From Flavobacteriales bacterium (lineage in GTDB: Bacteria > Bacteroidota > Bacteroidia > Flavobacteriales_F > PHOS-HE28), in NCBI GenBank assembly GCA_016788205.1, contig JAEUTA010000026.1, positions 62,001 to 126,000 of the forward strand: 64,000 bases of DNA. The letters run 5' to 3'. The notes beneath the pieces are model-generated. The model had not been told where the DNA came from. It made no database searches and saw only the letters and a list, made by a program, of their open reading frames with translations. Position 1 is the first letter of the stretch. Each line of letters begins with the position of its first letter. Position numbers and translations under genes: made by a program. Positions 4,969 to 17,983 of the stretch are shown in pieces.

Positions 4969-5041
4969 GGTGCCTTAGCTCAGCTGGTAGAGCAATGGAT
5001 TGAAAATCCATGTGTCCCCAGTTCGATTCTGGGAGGCACCA
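4969..5041 (+). tRNA. tRNA-Phe (GAA anticodon)
   Basis: The acceptor stem pairs GGTGCCT (4969-4975) with AGGCACC (5034-5040), followed by discriminator A. The D-arm is AGCTCAGCTGGTAGAGC. The anticodon stem ATGGA/TCCAT encloses loop TTGAAAA with anticodon GAA, so it decodes UUC/UUU. The T-arm is CCCAG-TTCGATT-CTGGG. Total length is 73 bases. The CCA end is not encoded: the next bases after the discriminator are CG. Confidence 0.97.
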
Positions 5042-5045
5042 CGAA

Positions 5046-5074
5046 AAGAACCCCGCCCTGCAGGCGGGGTTCTT
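5046..5074 (+). terminator. Rho-independent terminator after tRNA-Phe
   Basis: A perfect 12-bp stem, AAGAACCCCGCC / GGCGGGGTTCTT, with a five-base loop (CTGCA) begins five bases after the tRNA. Its arms provide an A-run before and a T-rich tract after the GC core, as in intrinsic terminators. It separates the tRNA from the porin operon that starts at 5169. Confidence 0.85.
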
Positions 5075-5168
5075 CCGTTATGCCCTGCCCCTTCCCGCCG
5101 GGGAGAAGGCATTTACCCCAATTGGGCTATTCCAGCTGTGGTGTGGCAAGGGTTGTTTCGCGGCCCCA

Positions 5169-6383
5169 ATGCGCAAGCTCTTCCTCGGCCTTCTAGCCAC
5201 TCTGGCGACCATTTCCCACGCGCAGGTCCTTACCAAAGAGGATTCGCTGAACGCAGGCCTCGTTAAAAGCGACCGCACCACCCTGGTCAGCGGCTACGGT
5301 GAGCTGAAGGTGTCTTACGACCAGAAGCTCGGCACAGGCCAGGCCAACCTCACCCGTAACGTGCTGTTCCTAGGGCACCGTTTCAACAGCCGCATCACTT
5401 TCTTCAGTGAAATGGAGTTGGAGAACGCCGGTGTGGAAGGTGGCAAAACGCGCGGCGAGCTGAACATGGAGCAGCTCTTCATCAAATTCGACATCAACAA
5501 GGACATCTACCTCACCGGAGGGTTATTCATCCCGCGGTTCGGCATCATCAACGAGAACCACCTGCCCACGACCTTCAACGGGAACGACCGCCCTTTCGTG
5601 GAGCAGCTCATCATCCCCAGCACCTGGCGGGAGATCGGCGTCGGCCTGTACGGGCGCAGCACGCGCATTCCCGGCCTTAACTGGAGCGTGGCGCTCCAGA
5701 ACGGATTGAACGCTGGCGCCTTTCAACACGGTAGCGGCTTGCGCGAAGGGCGTGGTGGTGGAAGTCAGGCGAGCGCCGCGAACCTCGGCGTCAGCGGCGC
5801 ACTGCTCTACTACATCGGCGACTTCCGGCTACAGGCGAGCGGGTACTATGGTGGAGCGGCGGGGTTGACGCAACGTGAGGCGGACAGTCTCCAACTGGAC
5901 TACGGGGCTTTCGGAACGCCCGTGCGGCTACTGGAAGCCAACGTACAATATCTGGGTGAGACCTGGCGCGTGAAGCTCCTCGCTGCGCAGGTGGACGTAC
6001 GCGATGCGGCGCGCGTGAACAGAGCTTACGCCAACAATACACCGGAACGCATGGTGGGGGCGTATGCCGAGATCGGATGCGACATCTGGTCCTTGATCAA
6101 GCCCGCCCAACAGCGCGACCTGATGCTTTTCACACGCCTGGAAACATTGGACATGAATGCAGTCCTTCCGAAGAACGGCATAGACGACCCCACGCTGAAG
6201 CGTACGTACGTGGTGTCGGGGATAACCTACGTACCGGCGGGGGGCATCAGTATCAAAGCGGACTACGCGTTGAGGATCACCGGAGAGCCCAACCCATCGC
6301 TCTACATCAACCCGTATCCACAGGCGCTGCCCTATTTCACCAGCAACGGCTTCTTCAACCTGGGCCTGGCCTACAGCTTCTGA
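5169..6383 (+). CDS. Porin-like outer-membrane beta-barrel (OprO/OprP-like)
   Basis: 404 residues starting MRKLFLGLLATLATISHAQ, a signal peptide cut after HAQ. The mature protein shows porin strands: VSGYGELKVSYDQ, FLGHRFNSRITFFSEMELENA, DIYLTGGLFIPRFGIINENHL, a ring of barrel strands, and a terminal aromatic strand NLGLAYSF. The pattern resembles the phosphate-selective porin O/P group found widely in Bacteroidota, but the solute is not predictable. I chose the ATG at 5169 for its signal peptide. Upstream in-frame codons run into the tRNA and its terminator. It is the first gene of a four-gene operon; its TGA overlaps the next ATG (TGATG). Confidence 0.75.
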   Translation: MRKLFLGLLATLATISHAQVLTKEDSLNAGLVKSDRTTLVSGYGELKVSYDQKLGTGQANLTRNVLFLGHRFNSRITFFSEMELENAGVEGGKTRGELNMEQLFIKFDINKDIYLTGGLFIPRFGIINENHLPTTFNGNDRPFVEQLIIPSTWREIGVGLYGRSTRIPGLNWSVALQNGLNAGAFQHGSGLREGRGGGSQASAANLGVSGALLYYIGDFRLQASGYYGGAAGLTQREADSLQLDYGAFGTPVRLLEANVQYLGETWRVKLLAAQVDVRDAARVNRAYANNTPERMVGAYAEIGCDIWSLIKPAQQRDLMLFTRLETLDMNAVLPKNGIDDPTLKRTYVVSGITYVPAGGISIKADYALRITGEPNPSLYINPYPQALPYFTSNGFFNLGLAYSF

Positions 6384-6811
6384 TGCAACGTCGTGAATTC
6401 CTGCGCAACTCGTGCATGGCCTGCGCCGGATCGGCCTTGGGACTTTCGGCCTTCTCGCTCGCGGGATGCGCCTCCCTCCCACTGGTGAAAGCCACGCACG
6501 AGAACGGAGGTCTCTCCTTCCCGAGAAGCGCCTTCGCTGAGGCGACCCAAGTGATCGTACGTCACCCCGAACTGAGCTACGACCTGCTCGTGGTGAAAAG
6601 CGCGGATGGCACCCATCGTGCCTTGTACATGCGATGCACGCACGAAGACCAACCGCTCTCCGCTACCGCCAAGGGCCTGCACTGCACATCGCACGGCAGC
6701 CGCTTCGCGCTGGATGGAACGGTCATGACCGGTCCCGCAACGGAACCCCTCCTCTCCTTCCCTGTAACCAGCGCAGGGGAATTCCTGACCATACGTACCA
6801 ACACACCTTGA
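6383..6811 (+). CDS. Exported Rieske [2Fe-2S] protein with a Tat-type signal
   Basis: 142 residues. The start MQRREFLRNSCMACAGSALG has a twin-arginine signal (RREFL) followed by a hydrophobic stretch and LAGC, so it may also be lipidated. The Rieske cluster ligands are present: C-x-H in MRCTHEDQPL and C-x2-H in LHCTSHGSRFALDG, 13 residues apart. Such proteins pass single electrons in the periplasm. The ATG overlaps the porin stop codon and three bases separate it from the imelysin gene. Its redox partner is unknown; the di-heme protein two genes downstream is the obvious candidate. Confidence 0.85.
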   Translation: MQRREFLRNSCMACAGSALGLSAFSLAGCASLPLVKATHENGGLSFPRSAFAEATQVIVRHPELSYDLLVVKSADGTHRALYMRCTHEDQPLSATAKGLHCTSHGSRFALDGTVMTGPATEPLLSFPVTSAGEFLTIRTNTP

Positions 6812-6814
6812 ACG

Positions 6815-7885
6815 ATGCAGAAGATCCTCATCCTCGCCGTAGTCGCCACCACACTGATAGCCTGTAAGAAGGAAAGCTCCGAACCTTCCGGTGGAGGAAC
6901 GCAGGTCGCTTTTGAGAACCACCAGGTATTGCACGCCTTCGCCGAGAACGTGGCACAGGACAATTACACGGATCTCGCCGCGAAAAGCAGTGCGCTTCGC
7001 GATGCGATCCAAACGTTCAACACATCGCTGAGCGATGCCGACCTGGCCAACTGCCGCCAGCAATGGCGCGATACCCGTACCAGCTGGGAACGCTCGGAAG
7101 CCTTGCTCTTCGGCCCGGTGGCCACCGAGAACATCGACCCCAGGATCGATACATGGCCGGTGAACTTCACTGATCTGGAGGCGCAACTTTCCAGCGGAAA
7201 CGCCTTCACTCCTGAATACATCACGGCGTTGGAAGATGCGTTGAAGGGTTTCCACCCGATCGAGTATCTCCTCTTCGGCCTCAACGGCGACAAGACCGCG
7301 GACCAATTCACGGCGCGCGAGCGCGAGTATATCGTAGCGCTGGCAGAAGACCTCGCTGAACTCACCGGTTCACTGCGCACGAGTTGGGACCCCACTGGCA
7401 GCGGTAACTACAGCGCAGTATTCGCACAGGCTGGTGATGGCAGCGCCGTATACCCCACTGAGCGTGCCGCGTACGAGGAGGTGGTGAACGCCATGGCGGG
7501 CATCTGCGATGAGGTCGCGAACGGCAAGATGGGCGAGGTGTTGCTCGCGCAGGACGCCTCCATGGAGGAGTCCCCGTACTCGCAGAACTCGATCACCGAT
7601 TTCACCAACAACATCCGCGGCGTTGAGAACGTGTACCTGGGCCGCTATACCGCTGACGGCACAGGCATGGAGAACTTCGTACGCGAGCATTCCCTGCAAC
7701 TGGACAACACGATCAAGCTACAGATCTCCGCTTCCATCACGGCGCTCAATAACATCACCGTCCCATTCGGTCAAGCCATCACGGAACAACCCGTGCAGGT
7801 GCAGCAGGCCATTGACGCCATAAATGCGCTGGCGACCACGCTGAACGACGAGCTTTTGCCCTTGGTGCAGCAGCACGTGCATTGA
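6815..7885 (+). CDS. Imelysin (peptidase M75-like) lipoprotein
   Basis: 356 residues with a lipoprotein signal (VVATTLIAC, Cys 17). The body is the imelysin two-bundle helical fold. It includes the family GxHxxE signature as KGFHPIEYLLFG (Gly145, His147, Glu150) and an upstream ARDTRTSWE-like helix (RQQWRDTRTSWERSEALLFG). Imelysins such as EfeO/IrpA are linked to iron handling and bind metal rather than cleave peptides. The gene sits three bases after the Rieske gene and touches the di-heme oxidoreductase gene, so the three are probably made together. Iron is the likely metal, by family analogy only. Confidence 0.88.
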   Translation: MQKILILAVVATTLIACKKESSEPSGGGTQVAFENHQVLHAFAENVAQDNYTDLAAKSSALRDAIQTFNTSLSDADLANCRQQWRDTRTSWERSEALLFGPVATENIDPRIDTWPVNFTDLEAQLSSGNAFTPEYITALEDALKGFHPIEYLLFGLNGDKTADQFTAREREYIVALAEDLAELTGSLRTSWDPTGSGNYSAVFAQAGDGSAVYPTERAAYEEVVNAMAGICDEVANGKMGEVLLAQDASMEESPYSQNSITDFTNNIRGVENVYLGRYTADGTGMENFVREHSLQLDNTIKLQISASITALNNITVPFGQAITEQPVQVQQAIDAINALATTLNDELLPLVQQHVH

Positions 7886-7890
7886 TCGCG

Positions 7891-9282
7891 ATGATCACCC
7901 GGCGGCATATCATGTGGAACAGCGGACAGCTTCTACTGTGCGTTGTTCTTTTCTCCGCATGCCGTAAGGAGCCAGCGGAATGGGATGCCAATGAACGTCA
8001 CCCATGGCTAAGCGGTGGACGACAAACGGTGTTCGACGCCGGAACGGGGGCCTTCAGCCACGGCTTTCCGGAGATGAGCGCTACCGCGCAGACGCTGCAT
8101 GGGATCGGCGATATACAGTTCGAGCAGACGTTCGTGAGCGCTCCCGCTCCGATCAACCCCGGACTCGGTCCTGTGTTCAACAGCGTCAGCTGCACAAGCT
8201 GCCACATCGGCGATGGACGGGGAAAGCCTCCCAGTGGAAGTGAGCCGCTCCTGAGCATGTTGATCCGCATCAGTGTGCCCGGAACCGATGCCCACGGTGG
8301 GCCCGCGGTCGTGCCCGGCTTCGGTGGCCAACTGCAACAACGTGCTGTTTTCGGCACCGCACCCGAAGCGAACGTCACTTTAACGTGGACCACCACTACC
8401 GAAACGCTGAATGACGGTACCACCATCGACCTTCGCACTCCATCGTACACTTTTTCCAACGCTTACGCACCCTTGCCGGGTGACATGATGTGGTCTGCGC
8501 GCGTCGCTCCACCGGTCTTCGGTCTGGGTCTGCTCGAAGCGATCGATGAGAACACGATCCGCAGCGGGAGTGACGAGAACGATGCCAATGGCGATGGCAT
8601 CAGCGGCAGAACGAACGAGGTGTGGGATGTGGAAGGCCAACGCATAGCCCTGGGTCGGTTCGGCTGGAAGGCCGAGCAGCCTACCCTGTTGCAGCAGAGC
8701 GCCGCCGCCTACAACGAGGACATGGGCATTACCAACCTTCTGTTCCCTAGCGAAAGCTCCTTGGGACAACCGCAGTACGACGGCCGCAACGATGACATCG
8801 AACTAACCGACAGCATCCTTCACGCTGTGGCTTTCTACGTTAGAACACTGGCCGTGCCTGCACGACGCAATACCGATGCCCCGGTCATTCGGCAAGGTGA
8901 GATCCTCTTCAACGAGGCCGGTTGTTCCAGTTGCCACGTGCCCGAGCAACGCACACATGTGGATGTGGCCTTCGCTGCCGCTAGCAACCAGCGCATATTC
9001 CCTTACACCGATCTGCTCTTGCATGACATGGGGCCCGGCCTCACGGATGGACGACCCAGCTTCCGTGCCGACGGGACAGAATGGCGCACGCCTCCGCTTT
9101 GGGGTATCGGCCTCACGCAAGTCGTGAACGGGCACCAGAATTTCCTTCACGATGGCCGTGCACGCTCGCTCTTGGAAGCCATACTCTGGCATGGAGGAGA
9201 AGCGCAGAACAGTTCGGATGCCGTACGTGCCATGAGCACGGAGGAGCGAACCGCATTGCTCGCCTTCCTCGGCTCGCTGTGA
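7891..9282 (+). CDS. Di-heme oxidoreductase family (DUF1111) c-type cytochrome lipoprotein
   Basis: About 463 residues with a lipoprotein signal (LCVVLFSAC). Two haem-c attachment sites are visible: CTSCH (about residue 101-105) and CSSCH (about 345-349). These match the di-heme oxidoredictase family, formerly annotated thiol oxidoreductase, which is distantly related to MauG-type peroxidases. Family-like segments include NPGLGPVFNSVSCTSCH, GDGISGRTNEVWD and HDGRARSLLEAILWHGGEA. I chose the ATG at 7891; a TTG at 7882 and an ATG at 7912 are alternatives. Members frequently sit beside imelysin genes, as here. Confidence 0.88.
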   Translation: MITRRHIMWNSGQLLLCVVLFSACRKEPAEWDANERHPWLSGGRQTVFDAGTGAFSHGFPEMSATAQTLHGIGDIQFEQTFVSAPAPINPGLGPVFNSVSCTSCHIGDGRGKPPSGSEPLLSMLIRISVPGTDAHGGPAVVPGFGGQLQQRAVFGTAPEANVTLTWTTTTETLNDGTTIDLRTPSYTFSNAYAPLPGDMMWSARVAPPVFGLGLLEAIDENTIRSGSDENDANGDGISGRTNEVWDVEGQRIALGRFGWKAEQPTLLQQSAAAYNEDMGITNLLFPSESSLGQPQYDGRNDDIELTDSILHAVAFYVRTLAVPARRNTDAPVIRQGEILFNEAGCSSCHVPEQRTHVDVAFAAASNQRIFPYTDLLLHDMGPGLTDGRPSFRADGTEWRTPPLWGIGLTQVVNGHQNFLHDGRARSLLEAILWHGGEAQNSSDAVRAMSTEERTALLAFLGSL

Positions 9283-9286
9283 TCGA

Positions 9287-9874
9287 TCACGGGTTATCGC
9301 GCAACCAGGCTTTCACCTTCAAAAGGTGCTGCTGCTTCACCGGTTCTCGGGAGCGTTTATTCGTCCCGGTGAAGTACTTGTGCCGTTCCAGGAACCTCTC
9401 CTGTAGTTCGTTCCACTGGCGCTCGGTACTTAACACACCATAATGGCGCATCTCCTGGAACAGCGTGCTACCGATGCGTTCGAAATCACCGCGCCCCAGG
9501 TAATCGAGATCGGCATCGCATAGGATGCGAGCCAACTTGTTCCGCGGAGCCTGTGGTATGCGGGTGGACATGATCATATCGCAGACGCGTTCCACCTGAT
9601 CGGATGAAAAACCGAACCCCGGTAGTTTTTCCCGGACCAACGCACAACCGGCCGTTTCATGATCGAGGTCCTGAACGGTGAAGCCGGAGTCGTGGTAGAG
9701 CGCGGCAACCTTCAACAAGGTCAACCCTTCACCGGTCACGCCTTCTTGTTCGGCGATATCGACCACACTGGCATAAACGTCCAACGTGTGCTCCAGCGAA
9801 TGGTAGGTGCGCGCCTTGGGTAGCTCGTTGCGGAGCTTGGTAAGGATGAACGTCCGTGCCGCCTGTGGATCCAT
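9287..9874 (-). CDS. HD-domain phosphohydrolase-like protein
   Basis: 195 residues starting MDPQAARTFILTKLRNELP. The metal-binding HD signature is spread as YHSLEHT (first His), LYHDSGF (His-Asp pair) and CDADLDYLG (last Asp), as in small HD proteins that hydrolyse nucleotide phosphates. Substrate is unknown. It converges on the di-heme gene with four bases between stops and is divergent from the histidine kinase. The ATG at 9874 was preferred to a longer frame that would extend into the kinase promoter region. Confidence 0.8.
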   Translation of the reverse strand: MDPQAARTFILTKLRNELPKARTYHSLEHTLDVYASVVDIAEQEGVTGEGLTLLKVAALYHDSGFTVQDLDHETAGCALVREKLPGFGFSSDQVERVCDMIMSTRIPQAPRNKLARILCDADLDYLGRGDFERIGSTLFQEMRHYGVLSTERQWNELQERFLERHKYFTGTNKRSREPVKQQHLLKVKAWLRDNP

Positions 9875-12416: not shown

Positions 12417-15212
12417 TCAGTATTTCCGAAGAATGGTCACGTGGCCTGTGAGGGCCTCCGTCGCACGTGCCGTGAGCACCTCGTAGAAGTAGGTGCCGTC
12501 CGGCACATCCGTGGCATTCCACGTATTGCGATAGTTCTTCGCCTCGAAGACGACCTGCCCCCAGCGGTTGAAGACCTTCACCGTGTTCTCCGTGCTCACG
12601 ATACCCTCGATGAAGAACCGATCGTTCTGACCATCACCGTTCGGGGTGAACACGTTCGGGACGATGATCTCGCAATCGATGTTGACCACGGACTGCGCGG
12701 TGGCCGTGCGGCCGCAGGCATCGGTGGCCGTTACCGAATAGGTACCTCCCACCTGCATGGGAACGTAGGTGATGGATCCGACATCACCGGTGCTCCACAG
12801 AAGGTCCAATCCACCGAAGCCACCACTTGCATCCACCGATACGGGGAGCGAGTCCTCGCTGCATTCCAAGGTGATGTCCGTGGTGCCGAGCACGATCGCT
12901 GGCGCGTCATTGATGGTGAGGTTGACGGAAGCAGTGACCGTGCGTGCGCAGGCATCCGTGTAACTGGCCGTGATGGTCACCGTTTCGCCGTCATCGGCGA
13001 CTCCATCCTCCAGGGGCTCGAACGGCACAATGGTATTGAGCAGCCCAGTGGGAATGGTGCGGGTGGCCGGCCAGACGTAATCAGCCCCATTGGTGGCCGT
13101 GCCCGCGTAAGCCATGTCCAACACCAATTCTCCGGGAACGCCATTAGGCCTGATGATGTTGATGGAACCCGGTTGACAGGCTTCCGTGGTGATGGGAGAA
13201 CCCATCACGGACATGTTGATCGGCGCGGGTGGTGTCAAACTCACGTTGAACACGGCCTGCATGGAGGTATTGCACGCGTCGGTGACGATGGCCGTGTACG
13301 TCGTCGCGACGATCGGATCCACCGTAAGTGTAGCCGCCACCGTACCGCCGGTCCATTCGTATGAATAGGGCGCATACCCTCCGCTGGCCGCCGGTGAAAG
13401 CACCGTACTACCCAGACAGGCGATCGTAGGCGATCCTCCGACCACCGTGAGGTCCGGAGCGTCGTTGATGGAGAACTGGTAATCCAGTTCCGAGAACCCA
13501 CCATTGCAGATGGATACATCGCCCAGGGTGAGGATCATTTGTTCGAACCCATCCGCATCGATGGGGAAAGTCACGGGAACGCTCACGGTGGATACACCGA
13601 CCGGGAAGATCACTTGCGTGGGCATGCCGATGAAATCCTCGTCGATGAGCGCCGCTCCGCCGGAGGAGATATAGACCGTATCCTCGAAAGCAGTGCCACC
13701 GAAGCGCTCGAAGACCACATTCACCTCGAAACAACTTTCGCTAACGGTCTCGAAATCAACAGTGGGGCCCTCTTCCAGATAAACATAGAATGGATTGGTG
13801 GTGGGTGTAACAGAGACCGGCACCGAGCCGCTGACCGTGAGTCCGCAATTGTCGGTGACGGTGACCGGGTAACTCGTATCCGACAATGGCGCTACGACCA
13901 GCGTTGCATCCGTGTTGCCTCCTCCCCAGTCGTACACGTAGGCACCGAAACCACCGCTAGCACCCGCGCTGATCTCCACTTCGCCGCCGCAGTCGACGAA
14001 GAACTCTTCCGCCTCCAGCTCCAGCGGAGGAGCTTCACCGATGACGAACGTGAACACGTTCTCGATGATCTCTCCCGTGCACTCGGAGAAGCTCTCCACC
14101 GTCATGATCAACGATTCCAGTACATCGCCATCCACCGGCGCATTGAAAACGATGGGAACCGCGGTCTCCCCAGCAGCGAACTGCACCACCGTTGGCAGCG
14201 CGGGTACGATATCCACCCCGTTCGTGAAATCGCCGGTATACAGCACATCGAACGTGGCCGCTTCAGAAGCATCCCCGAGGCGGATGAAGGATAGTCCCAT
14301 GGAGAAGCAGCTCTCGAACATGACATTGCCGACGATGCCGGGACCCGGAGTGAGCGTTGGAACGAACGGCGCACTGGTAAAGCTACCGGCCTCCAGGAAC
14401 ACGCCAGAATCCAGGATCTCGTCCAAACCGGAAGGCCCGCCAGCATCACCTACGGCCAGCTTGATGTGATAGGTCTGTCCGCACTGCACTTGTGCAACGG
14501 CCTCCATCACCACCGTGAAGCCGTCGTATGCGATGGTGGTGCCACTTTCGTTGTCCACATAGTATTCCGGATTCACCGGAGGACACGTGGGGTCATCCGG
14601 ATCACCATTGTTGTTGAGCCCGTTGTTCACGTTATCGATCGTGACGGGCGTGGTGGAATTCGGTACCAAAGCGATGTTGACAGCGCCGTTCGAATAAGGG
14701 CCTGAGAAACCCGGGCCACTGAGGAAGAAACCGAACGCATCGTTGAACGAGCAGACGTATTCGGGGTACTCATCGGATCCGAAAACGTAGCGGAACTTTA
14801 TGGAATCGCCGACGGGCACGAAGTCGAACTCGAGTACGGCGCGGTCATTGATGGCACCGTTGGAGATGGCCACCAAATCCGGATCGCTGCCCGTTCCGTT
14901 GCCGGTACTAGCGAAGTCCGAAGCAGGACCTGCTGCATCCCCTGCCAAACCCGTGGAAAGGATGATGCCGGCCGGTAGGCCCAGGTTACCGCCACTGTTG
15001 GTGAAGGAACCACTTCCGACCTGCGCCGTGGCCGGGCTGAGCACGCCGTTGTACTGGACGTTCGACACGGTTACACCACTGCCAAGCAGGACGTCCTGCA
15101 CGAGCTGTTCCGGTGTCATGGCCGTATTCACCAGCACCTGCGCCCATGCTCCTGTTGCTGCGAACAACAGGCCAGCAAGCAAGCCCCCACGTCGTGTATC
15201 GTTCAAGTTCAT
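12417..15212 (-). CDS. Choice-of-anchor-L secreted protein with type B T9SS (gliding-associated) C-terminus
   Basis: 931 residues. There is a signal peptide (LLAGLLFAATGAWA). A choice-of-anchor-L domain covers about 25-290 (MTPEQLVQDVLLGSGVTVSN, FRYVFGSDEYPEYVCSFNDA, YHIKLAVGDAG). Several Ig-like beta repeats of the PKD/SprB-like kind follow (YDWGGGNTDATLVV, YSYEWTGGTVAATLTV). The C-terminus is the TIGR04131-type domain (VPNVFTPNGDGQNDRFFIEG, VKVFNRWGQVVFEA, GHVTILRKY) that targets proteins through the type IX secretion system. The role is probably surface adhesion or matrix; the ligand is unknown. A paralog lies four bases upstream. Confidence 0.9.
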   Translation of the reverse strand: MNLNDTRRGGLLAGLLFAATGAWAQVLVNTAMTPEQLVQDVLLGSGVTVSNVQYNGVLSPATAQVGSGSFTNSGGNLGLPAGIILSTGLAGDAAGPASDFASTGNGTGSDPDLVAISNGAINDRAVLEFDFVPVGDSIKFRYVFGSDEYPEYVCSFNDAFGFFLSGPGFSGPYSNGAVNIALVPNSTTPVTIDNVNNGLNNNGDPDDPTCPPVNPEYYVDNESGTTIAYDGFTVVMEAVAQVQCGQTYHIKLAVGDAGGPSGLDEILDSGVFLEAGSFTSAPFVPTLTPGPGIVGNVMFESCFSMGLSFIRLGDASEAATFDVLYTGDFTNGVDIVPALPTVVQFAAGETAVPIVFNAPVDGDVLESLIMTVESFSECTGEIIENVFTFVIGEAPPLELEAEEFFVDCGGEVEISAGASGGFGAYVYDWGGGNTDATLVVAPLSDTSYPVTVTDNCGLTVSGSVPVSVTPTTNPFYVYLEEGPTVDFETVSESCFEVNVVFERFGGTAFEDTVYISSGGAALIDEDFIGMPTQVIFPVGVSTVSVPVTFPIDADGFEQMILTLGDVSICNGGFSELDYQFSINDAPDLTVVGGSPTIACLGSTVLSPAASGGYAPYSYEWTGGTVAATLTVDPIVATTYTAIVTDACNTSMQAVFNVSLTPPAPINMSVMGSPITTEACQPGSINIIRPNGVPGELVLDMAYAGTATNGADYVWPATRTIPTGLLNTIVPFEPLEDGVADDGETVTITASYTDACARTVTASVNLTINDAPAIVLGTTDITLECSEDSLPVSVDASGGFGGLDLLWSTGDVGSITYVPMQVGGTYSVTATDACGRTATAQSVVNIDCEIIVPNVFTPNGDGQNDRFFIEGIVSTENTVKVFNRWGQVVFEAKNYRNTWNATDVPDGTYFYEVLTARATEALTGHVTILRKY

Positions 15213-15216
15213 GTTC

Positions 15217-17874
15217 TTAGTCCTGGGTTCCTTTCAACAATGTTACAGATCCATACCCCTCCACCGCCGGGAAATAATGGCCCTTCGCTTTGTACTTGTA
15301 GACATAGACTCCGGTGGTCGCTTCATCACCTCCATTCACGTCCCCTTTCCAAGGGAACGCCATATTATCCGTGCTGTAGATCGCCTCACCCCAGCGGTCG
15401 AAGATGATCATCTCGAACTCGTCGATGTAATGACCCACAGGGCCGAAGGTCTCATTGATGCCATCCCCGTCCGGCGTGAACGCCGAAGGGAAATAGATGT
15501 GTGCCGGGACCTTCAGCTCCACCGAATCGGTGCCGACGCAACCATTGAAGGTGGTGATGCTGAGGGTGACCCAATGATCCTCTAGGTTCAGGTAGCTGTG
15601 GTAAGCCTCATTGGTCCGGTACAAGGTGCCATCACCCATGTCCCATTTGTGCGTGAAGGCCGGTGGAACGGTAGCCGCTTTCACGTGCCAGTCATCCTGA
15701 CCCAAGTTCTCCTGTACGATATCCATGTATACGGCTTCCACTGCTACCGTTACCTCTTCCGTAAGCACCACACCACAGCGATCGCTCACGTTCACGACAT
15801 AGGTCTGGTCCTCGATCGGGATCACCTTCAGGATAGGGTCGGTCCACCCGCGGTCCACCCATTCTATCGTGTAGTAACCGGAACCGCCCAAGACCTCCAC
15901 CTGCACGTTCGAGCTATCGCCGAAGCAGATCACGTGGTCATCGGTCACTACGAGCTGGAAGGGGGAGTAATGAGGCAGGAGCGTTCGCACCTGTGCATCG
16001 CCGGAGTAGCCACACTGGTCATTCACGGTCACGGTATAGGTCTCGTCCTGTGGAACGGCCACATCCATATCATACGCGTTGGATAACACCTGACCCGCGG
16101 CGTTCATCCACGTAAGCTCATACACGCCATTACCGCCAGTGATGTCCACCACGCTGACCGATGCCGTATCACCAGCACATATCACCGTGACGTCGTCGCT
16201 GACCGTGACCACAACAGGGTCCAGCGGCTCAGTGCTCACCATCACGCTATCCTGCACGACCTCTCCACAACCCTCTGTGACGGTGACCACATAATGAACC
16301 GGCTCACTCGCTGGCACAGTCACCGTTGCCGTGCTGCCTACAACATCCCCGGCACGTGTCCACGTGTAAGTGTACACCCCATTTCCCCCTACCGTGCTGG
16401 TAACACTGATCTGATCCGTACCCAGGCAAGGGATCTGGATATCCGGTGATACGACCACTTCCAACGGATCGTACACCGGCAGTGTGACCGTGAATGAGCC
16501 GGAGATGGGCTCCACGCTGCAACCGTCGGTAACGGTAAGGTCATATGTAGTGGTCACTTCCGGCGATACCGTGATGGTCGGTGTGGTCTCCCCGGTGCTC
16601 CACTGATAACCGTAGTATCCGACACCACCACCGATCTGTGGGTCCAGCACGTTCACATCGCCGCATGTGGCGTCGATGTTCGTAAGGCCGTTCAACTGCA
16701 AAGGGAGCGGACTATCGATCACGAACTCGAACACGGTCTCCACGTTCGCGTTGGCACAAACGATGAGCTGACTGATGGTGATGACCAGATCCTCCGGACC
16801 ATCAGCATCCAGCGGGATGTCCAATTCGAATGAAACGGTGCTGTCTTCGGCAGCGAAAGTCAGCTGCGAAGGCAATGCTGGCGAATAATCCACCCCTGCC
16901 GTAGCCGCGCCGCTGATGGCGATATCCACCGTTTCCTGAAGCGAAACATCACCTTGGCGAGTGAACACCAGTTCGACGGGAACGCATCCTTCATTCATGG
17001 TATTGCCGATGACACCTGGGCCGGTTACCAGTTGTGGTATCACCTGCCCCGTGCTGGTGAAGCTGCCCGCCTCCAGGAAGACCGCCGAATCGTAGGCCGT
17101 ATCACTATCGAAATCATTGCCTGCATCACCCACTGCCAACTTGATGTGATAGGTCTCGCCGCATTGCACCAGCGCGAAGGCCGTGAGCACCGTAGTGAAC
17201 CCCCCGAAGCAGAGGGTCTGGCCGTCGGTATTGTTCACGTAATAATCCGGGTTCACGGCCGGGCAATCCGGATCCTCAGGGTCGTTCCCGGCACCGCTGT
17301 TCACGTTGGCGATCGTCACCGGTGTTACGCCATCCGGCAACACGGCGATATTGATGGCACCACCTGAATACGGACCTGCAATGCCTGGGCCGCTCAGGAA
17401 AAAGCCGAACGCATCATTAAAGCTGCAAACGAAGGAGGGATACTCCTCCGACCCGAATACGTAGCGGAACTTGAGCGAATCGCCCGTGGGCACGAAATCG
17501 AATTCGAGAATGGAATAATTGGTGATGGGACCGCCGACGATGGCCTCCAAGTCGGGATCATTGCCATTGTTCTCCAGGTCGTCCGACGAAAAGTTGGTTT
17601 CGGGCCCTACGACCGATGCTGCGAAGCCCGAGGAGAGTATCACACCAGCATCCAGACCCAAATCGCCTGTCTGCGTGAAAGAAGCCGCCCCCTGCTCGAT
17701 GGTATTGGGCACGGCCACACCGTTGTAAACGATGTTACTTACTGATACCCCACCGCCAAGCAGGACATTCTGAAGCAACTCCGCCGGGGTCATGCTCTCG
17801 TCCACGGCCAATTGGGCCATCGCGCCGAACGACAAGGAAGAAGCGACCAAGAGTGATAAGGCTCGAAAGCGCAT
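15217..17874 (-). CDS. Second choice-of-anchor-L secreted protein with type B T9SS C-terminus
   Basis: 885 residues, a tandem paralog of the next gene with the same plan. The signal peptide is RALSLLVASSLSFGAMAQ. The choice-of-anchor-L domain (about 20-290) includes MTPAELLQNVLLGGGVSVSN, FRYVFGSEEYPSFVCSFNDA and YHIKLAVGDAGND. A series of beta-sandwich repeats follows (GGNGVYTYTW, GGNGVYELTW, GGSGYYTIEW), then a PKD-like segment (FTHKWDMGDGT) and a TIGR04131-type end (YFPSAFTPDGDGINETF, IIFDRWGEAIYS). I chose the ATG at 17874 for its signal peptide. The middle repeats differ from the sister gene, as expected after duplication followed by repeat turnover. Confidence 0.9.
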   Translation of the reverse strand: MRFRALSLLVASSLSFGAMAQLAVDESMTPAELLQNVLLGGGVSVSNIVYNGVAVPNTIEQGAASFTQTGDLGLDAGVILSSGFAASVVGPETNFSSDDLENNGNDPDLEAIVGGPITNYSILEFDFVPTGDSLKFRYVFGSEEYPSFVCSFNDAFGFFLSGPGIAGPYSGGAINIAVLPDGVTPVTIANVNSGAGNDPEDPDCPAVNPDYYVNNTDGQTLCFGGFTTVLTAFALVQCGETYHIKLAVGDAGNDFDSDTAYDSAVFLEAGSFTSTGQVIPQLVTGPGVIGNTMNEGCVPVELVFTRQGDVSLQETVDIAISGAATAGVDYSPALPSQLTFAAEDSTVSFELDIPLDADGPEDLVITISQLIVCANANVETVFEFVIDSPLPLQLNGLTNIDATCGDVNVLDPQIGGGVGYYGYQWSTGETTPTITVSPEVTTTYDLTVTDGCSVEPISGSFTVTLPVYDPLEVVVSPDIQIPCLGTDQISVTSTVGGNGVYTYTWTRAGDVVGSTATVTVPASEPVHYVVTVTEGCGEVVQDSVMVSTEPLDPVVVTVSDDVTVICAGDTASVSVVDITGGNGVYELTWMNAAGQVLSNAYDMDVAVPQDETYTVTVNDQCGYSGDAQVRTLLPHYSPFQLVVTDDHVICFGDSSNVQVEVLGGSGYYTIEWVDRGWTDPILKVIPIEDQTYVVNVSDRCGVVLTEEVTVAVEAVYMDIVQENLGQDDWHVKAATVPPAFTHKWDMGDGTLYRTNEAYHSYLNLEDHWVTLSITTFNGCVGTDSVELKVPAHIYFPSAFTPDGDGINETFGPVGHYIDEFEMIIFDRWGEAIYSTDNMAFPWKGDVNGGDEATTGVYVYKYKAKGHYFPAVEGYGSVTLLKGTQD

Positions 17875-17983
17875 CCGGGAGCGGTAAGAGTGGTGAAAAT
17901 ACAGGTTCGTCGCTTTGTTTGACCCCCCGATCGGCAAAATGGTTGCCTAGCCGTGGGAGCCCTAACCCTCCCGAACGCCCGGC

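Follow-up and report, generated by a model that had tools for sequence, protein, structure and literature searches.

Imelysins were linked to DUF1111 proteins and to iron by Xu et al. (2011; PMC3143127), and the functions of imelysin and of DUF1111/DHOR have been in question since at least that year. In Bacteroides thetaiotaomicron the locus BT2473–BT2482, which encodes CcsA, a porin, a thiol oxidoreductase and an M75 protein, was 63–324-fold up in low iron, according to a 2023 study (PMC10434189). Here we have analyzed a window, i.e., a whole stretch of 64,000 nucleotides, from the genome of a Flavobacteriales bacterium (GenBank assembly GCA_016788205.1, contig JAEUTA010000026.1, positions 62,001 to 126,000), in which four contiguous genes encode a porin, a Rieske protein, an imelysin and a two-haem DHOR. 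We consider this quartet to be a portable iron-acquisition cassette acting between the outer membrane and the periplasm, with a probability of about 0.6; a metal role for the cassette is well supported. The pair of imelysin and DHOR comes here in a cassette that always has a porin and usually a Rieske protein, which makes the pairing testable. We refer to the order porin–Rieske–imelysin–DHOR as type I, to DHOR–Rieske–porin as type II and to imelysin–DHOR–imelysin as type III. G000 is the genome containing the window, other G numbers are compared genomes and L numbers are loci.

A four-gene cassette that is gained or lost as a unit

The four reading frames (5169–9282) are all open on the plus strand and overlap or are separated by gaps of no more than five bases (Table 1). 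The original prediction, made from the sequence before this analysis, had described four overlapping or nearly touching genes for a porin, a Rieske protein, an imelysin and a two-haem protein, and this arrangement is borne out by the open frames, the Pfam matches and the fold model of the porin. Two of the junctions are as it had given them, a TGATG overlap between the porin and Rieske genes (6381–6385) and a three-base gap between the Rieske and imelysin genes (6812–6814). The third, an abutment at 7885, is only approximate, since the DHOR gene starts either at ATG 7891 (five-base gap) or at TTG 7882 (four-base overlap).

The porin had no family match in Pfam or NCBIfam, and a PDB profile search with its sequence found none either. 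Its AlphaFold2 model, with a predicted local distance difference test (pLDDT) score of 76.8, was matched by Foldseek to the 16-stranded OmpC/OmpF/OmpK36 structures of the PDB (E about 1e-12). The Rieske protein had been described as exported by the twin-arginine translocation (Tat) pathway; the twin-arginine signal is there and a lipobox (Cys29, invariant in the alignment) has to be added, so that the protein is probably a Tat-exported lipoprotein. Its cluster ligands C85, H87, C101 and H104 are invariant, and the CxH...CxxH pattern was present in 65/65 type I proteins. N-terminal to the lipobox, the Tat signal peptide has a motif RRxFxxxxCxxC that is conserved in 59 of these 65 proteins (window 6383–6440), and its two Cys are kept although they are expected to be cleaved off. 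The imelysin is, as predicted, a lipoprotein with the sequence GFHPIEY, which contains the GxHxxE motif (G145, H147 and E150, all three invariant). It has the full IrpA-type functional site, located at the domain interface (R88, E92, E95, D108, D112, H147 and E150; seven of seven residues, all in invariant columns), with spacings of 4, 3, 13, 4, 35 and 3 residues against 4, 3, 13, 4, 42 and 3 in PIBO (PMC3143127). In the DHOR both haem sites, C101/C104/H105 and C345/C348/H349, are invariant. Its AlphaFold2 model was discarded because of the low pLDDT (43.5), and the sole PDB profile match was a weak one to a c-type cytochrome.

The distribution of the quartet was assessed in two surveys. In the first, 197 genomes of the class were searched, and purpose-built profiles were used to annotate 20 regions holding an imelysin or long-DHOR gene. 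The type I order was found in 11 of the 197 genomes, belonging to 11 different families. Other regions had porin–imelysin–DHOR without Rieske (L054, L066, L071 and L172), the type III order known from Pseudomonas aeruginosa PA4370–4372 (e.g., L053, L065 and L070) or an imelysin without DHOR nearby (L067–L069). In the second, the loci of the best 80 imelysin relatives from the named genome collection were read by profile. A Rieske gene stood directly 5' of imelysin and DHOR in 63 of the 80, i.e., in 63 of the 68 that are not labelled Poribacteria (two of the 63 end at a contig edge before the porin); the rest of these 68 comprise four loci without Rieske and one ended by a contig edge. The original prediction had named a lack of conserved linkage between the Rieske and porin genes and imelysin/DUF1111 as its refutation; both counts contradict such a lack, the linkage being massive and syntenic. 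The cassette is recurrent, mostly from Bacteroidota, and as its order is conserved across many families the neighbourhood is not due to chance. The distance matrices of the four proteins correlate at 0.73–0.83 (65 cassettes), as expected for co-evolving genes, a value to which shared species history also contributes. Among cultured microbes, the cassette is carried by Chryseolinea serpens, Chitinophaga rupis, Mucilaginibacter, Parapedobacter koreensis and Pelobium manganitolerans.

In 12 cassette-free relatives of the genus with an intact contig, coaX, tRNA-Phe and the HD gene form an unbroken series, and exactly four genes lie between the tRNA and the HD gene in the window and in G003. In G015 a type III cassette adjoins the same tRNA-Phe. 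This site (window 4969–9871; L053) therefore accepts alternative imelysin cassettes: the quartet twice, imelysin–DHOR–imelysin once and none in 12 cases. Most of the genus is without the quartet. Since it is present either whole or not at all, it has been gained or lost as one unit. The genes flanking the cassette are unrelated and differ between genomes. Farther along the window (12417–17937, minus strand) there are two large related secreted proteins with a C-terminal domain of the VFTPNGDGQND / FTPDGDGINE type, like the sorting domains of gliding/T9SS-type proteins.

Table 1. Position of the cassette and its bordering features in the window.
Feature	Position	Strand	Basis and remarks
tRNA-Phe(GAA)	4969..5042	+	ARAGORN; left border of the cassette site
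Inverted repeat AGAACCCCGCC...GGCGGGGTTCTT	5047..5074	+	Read from the sequence; probable tRNA terminator; partly kept in G003
Degenerate AATACC-N8-GGTATT palindrome, 3 mismatches	5112..5131	+	Pattern search and window/G003 comparison
Porin, 404 aa, with a signal peptide and a predicted 16-stranded general-porin fold	5169..6383	+	AlphaFold2 and Foldseek; orthologues at the same position in type I loci
Rieske [2Fe-2S] protein, 142 aa	6383..6811	+	Pfam PF00355, 4e-10; invariant columns
Imelysin (M75) lipoprotein, 356 aa, GFHPIEY	6815..7885	+	Pfam Peptidase_M75 PF09375, 1e-63; invariant columns
DHOR (DUF1111) di-haem lipoprotein, 463 aa, two CXXCH	7891..9282	+	Pfam PF06537, 8e-103, over positions 7–499 of 499
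HD-domain protein	9287..9871	-	Right border of the site, outside the cassette; adjoins tRNA-Phe in cassette-free relatives

Upstream operators and a sister cassette without imelysin

A set of 62 non-redundant regions upstream of type I cassettes was scanned for the palindrome TTTAG-N7-CTAAA. With at most one mismatch it was found in 29 of the 62, against 1.0 expected. The spacer of seven stood clearly above all others, and the signal at spacer 11 was taken as its shadow. This palindrome matches the published Fur box of Riemerella anatipestifer, ATTTAGAATTATTCTAAAT (PMC5609570). Two genomes, G099 and G081, each contain a single perfect match to the extended box, and it stands directly before the cassette. 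A cassette located behind a Fur-type operator in many species is expected to be produced in iron shortage.

A second palindrome, AATACC-N8-GGTATT, was present in 16 of the 62 type I regions and in no type II region. In G211 it adjoins a Fur-type box before sufA–sufB as well as before the cassette, and this sharing of both operators counts in favour of the iron reading. In the window the inverted repeat behind the tRNA is a probable terminator, and the operon must therefore have its own promoter, downstream of the repeat. The degenerate copy of the second palindrome found there is the best-conserved noncoding block in the comparison with G003, whose copy was also retrieved by the pattern search; the second operator of the window's copy would be weak at best. 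A motif near TTTCCGCATTTCGTAA is shared by the upstream regions of several type I cassettes that lack a Fur-type box, many of them from Chitinophagaceae (L199, L190, L208, L201, L193, L231 and others).

The genome containing the window has a second Rieske gene (G000:C5; L074:6524-9368), with a short DHOR on one side, a porin-like gene on the other and no imelysin. The order DHOR–Rieske–porin, without imelysin, was found in 39/39 short-DHOR loci (30 from the class sample and nine from the genus). Type II forms its own clade in the trees of the DHOR (support 1.0), the porin (0.99) and the Rieske protein (0.79). Together with the type I loci, these 39 indicate that porin, Rieske and DHOR recur together with or without imelysin. 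We found no description of the imelysin-free sister cassette in the open-access literature.

Upstream of type II cassettes the box has a spacer of six (22 of 39 regions with at most one mismatch, against 1.0 expected). Even-spaced operators are the form of the DtxR/MntR family, and the type II box resembles these. The refined pattern, WTTAGNCNNGNCTAAW, has two sites in this genome. One stands before the sister cassette, where the box GATTTAGGCTTGGCTAAACT lies 36 bp upstream of the ATG, and the other (G000:C30:292611-292626; L261) is flanked by pyrD and by a divergent DtxR-family repressor gene (domains Fe_dep_repress, Fe_dep_repr_C and FeoA), behind which comes a ZIP transporter. The same two sites recur in G004. 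The boxes are named Fur-type and DtxR/MntR-type by their pattern, and the proteins binding them are putative.

Since porin, Rieske and DHOR are found in both cassettes behind different metal-type boxes, they are a recurring metal-regulated redox unit in which imelysin marks the iron branch. By extension, porin, lipid-anchored Rieske and DHOR might constitute a general, undescribed metal-redox acquisition module of Bacteroidota, a tentative view to which we give somewhat less than even odds. One branch, expressed in iron starvation, would have imelysin and a Fur-type box; the other would be imelysin-free, with a box of the DtxR/MntR type that also serves a DtxR-family repressor and a ZIP transporter. 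In both, electrons would be moved across the periplasm, and a metal at the outer membrane would thereby be reduced or oxidised. The questions opened are whether DHOR receives electrons from Rieske, which metal belongs to each branch and whether imelysin is the iron-specific part.

Probable iron acquisition and its alternatives

The original prediction had read the operon as a complete pathway of substrate entry, metal binding and electron transfer, most economically for iron, and this overall interpretation is partly supported. We take the family roles to be entry for the porin, binding for imelysin, redox catalysis for DHOR and one-electron transport for Rieske. Small iron complexes or ions would pass the outer membrane through the porin, as its fold suggests, and the iron species would be bound by the imelysin lipoprotein via the conserved R/E/E/D/D/H/E pocket, by analogy with the family. 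The DHOR lipoprotein may then reduce or oxidise the bound iron, or release it from its ligand, and judging from synteny and domains the lipid-anchored Rieske protein would be its one-electron partner. The freed Fe(II) would then enter via FeoB, which is present in this genome. A reductive direction, from the respiratory chain to Rieske, DHOR and finally Fe(III), is slightly favoured.

Several points weigh against iron acquisition by this route. The putative electron transfer between Rieske and DHOR and its direction are deduced from neighbourhood and domains, and no partner was identified as the electron donor of Rieske. The window's own operon has no spacer-7 Fur-type box (the best candidate has three mismatches, at another spacing), and the two good Fur-type boxes of this genome stand before sufA/sufB and a SPOR-like gene. 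Rieske was found at its place in 0/12 loci labelled Poribacteria, and it is dispensable in some versions of the cassette, such as these. The existence of porin, imelysin and DHOR without Rieske, and of porin, Rieske and DHOR without imelysin and under different regulation, complicates the picture of a single pathway. The Leptospira imelysin–peroxidase–imelysin (LruB) operon responds, according to the literature, to iron limitation and is also induced by peroxide. Xu et al. (2011; PMC3143127) saw neither zinc nor haem nor ferric ion specifically bound by the crystallised imelysins. The iron link of the original prediction is strengthened by the Fur-type boxes found elsewhere and by the low-iron transcriptome of the related B. 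thetaiotaomicron locus (PMC10434189), and not by the upstream region of the window's copy.

The main rival is peroxide defence, in which DHOR would be a CcpA-like envelope peroxidase with Rieske as its electron donor, imelysin would sequester iron against Fenton chemistry and the iron control would reflect co-regulation with oxidative stress. Pfam describes DHOR as a putative peroxidase, both lethal H2O2 and mutation of perRA and perRB induce the LruB operon, Fur-type and PerR boxes can be hard to distinguish, and in G211 (L281) both type I operators, the Fur-type box and AATACC-N8-GGTATT, also precede sufA–sufB. However, iron limitation also elicits a response from these Leptospira imelysins and from the B. 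thetaiotaomicron locus, the removal of H2O2 needs no dedicated porin, and the operator of the sister cassette is shared with a metal repressor and a ZIP transporter, so that we regard peroxide defence as unlikely. Decidedly less probable is a maturation of the MauG/MbnH kind, in which DHOR would create a metal site by oxidising residues of the imelysin or the porin, with Rieske recycling the electrons. DHOR, a two-haem protein, keeps its tight linkage to imelysin in several gene orders, and related enzymes with two haems modify metal-binding proteins next to them. However, the type II loci have no adjacent imelysin in any of the 39 cases, indicating that imelysin is not the general DHOR substrate. 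The accessible part of PMC3143127 speaks of no modification in the imelysins that were crystallised.

That Rieske and the two-haem cytochrome are ordinary respiratory parts, belonging to complex III, would follow the assignment made in Bizionia argentinensis, where the transcripts of a Rieske protein (BZARG_RS03005) and a cytochrome c (BZARG_RS03000) fall together in an iron-poor mliR mutant (PMC9478572). Here this is very improbable: the flanking genes are unrelated and variable, the quartet is missing from most of the genus, the bc1 disulfide motif (second Cys pair) was present in 0/65 type I Rieske proteins, and the scores for the NCBIfam bc/b6f Rieske subunit (about 22–24 bits) are far below the cut-offs (97–250). 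Membership of a bc1 complex was rejected because the cassette lacks both this motif and a membrane cytochrome b. MEROPS lists imelysin as peptidase M75, and a peptidase operon, with imelysin as an insulin-cleaving metalloprotease, could be invoked on this basis. Peptidase activity is at odds with the imelysin structures (PMC3143127), and the synteny across many families refutes a chance neighbourhood; both ideas were rejected on these grounds and retain a negligible probability.

Comparison with described systems

The B. thetaiotaomicron locus, compared by its description only, resembles the cassette in having a porin, a thiol oxidoreductase (which we read as DHOR) and an M75 protein together, with a response to low iron. 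It differs in that the accessible excerpts list no Rieske and propose no redox pathway, and in having its own genes for cytochrome c biogenesis (CcsA) and a helix-turn-helix regulator. In the Fur-regulated imelysin operon PA4370–PA4373 (ICMP) of P. aeruginosa and in the LruB operon of Leptospira, imelysin adjoins a DUF1111/two-haem or thiol-peroxidase gene. The iron response is shared by both, with that to peroxide added in Leptospira. Unlike the quartet, they have two imelysins around DHOR, with no porin or Rieske described, and correspond to our type III loci.

EfeUOB also combines an imelysin-domain protein with a haem peroxidase in iron uptake, and EfeB is a DyP-type enzyme. However, this system requires the inner-membrane permease EfeU/Ftr1, and EfeO carries a cupredoxin domain. 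No PF03239 match for this permease was found in the genome (94% complete), and membership of EfeUOB was therefore rejected. The imelysin of the window scores 41 bits with the NCBIfam model of EfeO, against a cut-off of 270, and no cupredoxin domain was found in it. Xu et al. (2011; PMC3143127) referred to EfeB as DUF1111.

Apart from the MliR paper, we found no publication in the open-access literature joining a Rieske protein with imelysin or DHOR. In the MliR regulon of Bizionia, deletion of mliR lowers the Rieske and the cytochrome c tag, which adjoin each other, along with the iron genes. This adjacency would fit the DHOR–Rieske order of the sister cassette, and the pair may be such a cassette. 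In the light of the cassettes described here, iron studies of Bacteroidota in which Rieske/cytochrome c pairs were assigned to complex III may have to be read differently. Compared with all these systems, the Rieske-containing cassette is a new variant of the known imelysin–DHOR theme.

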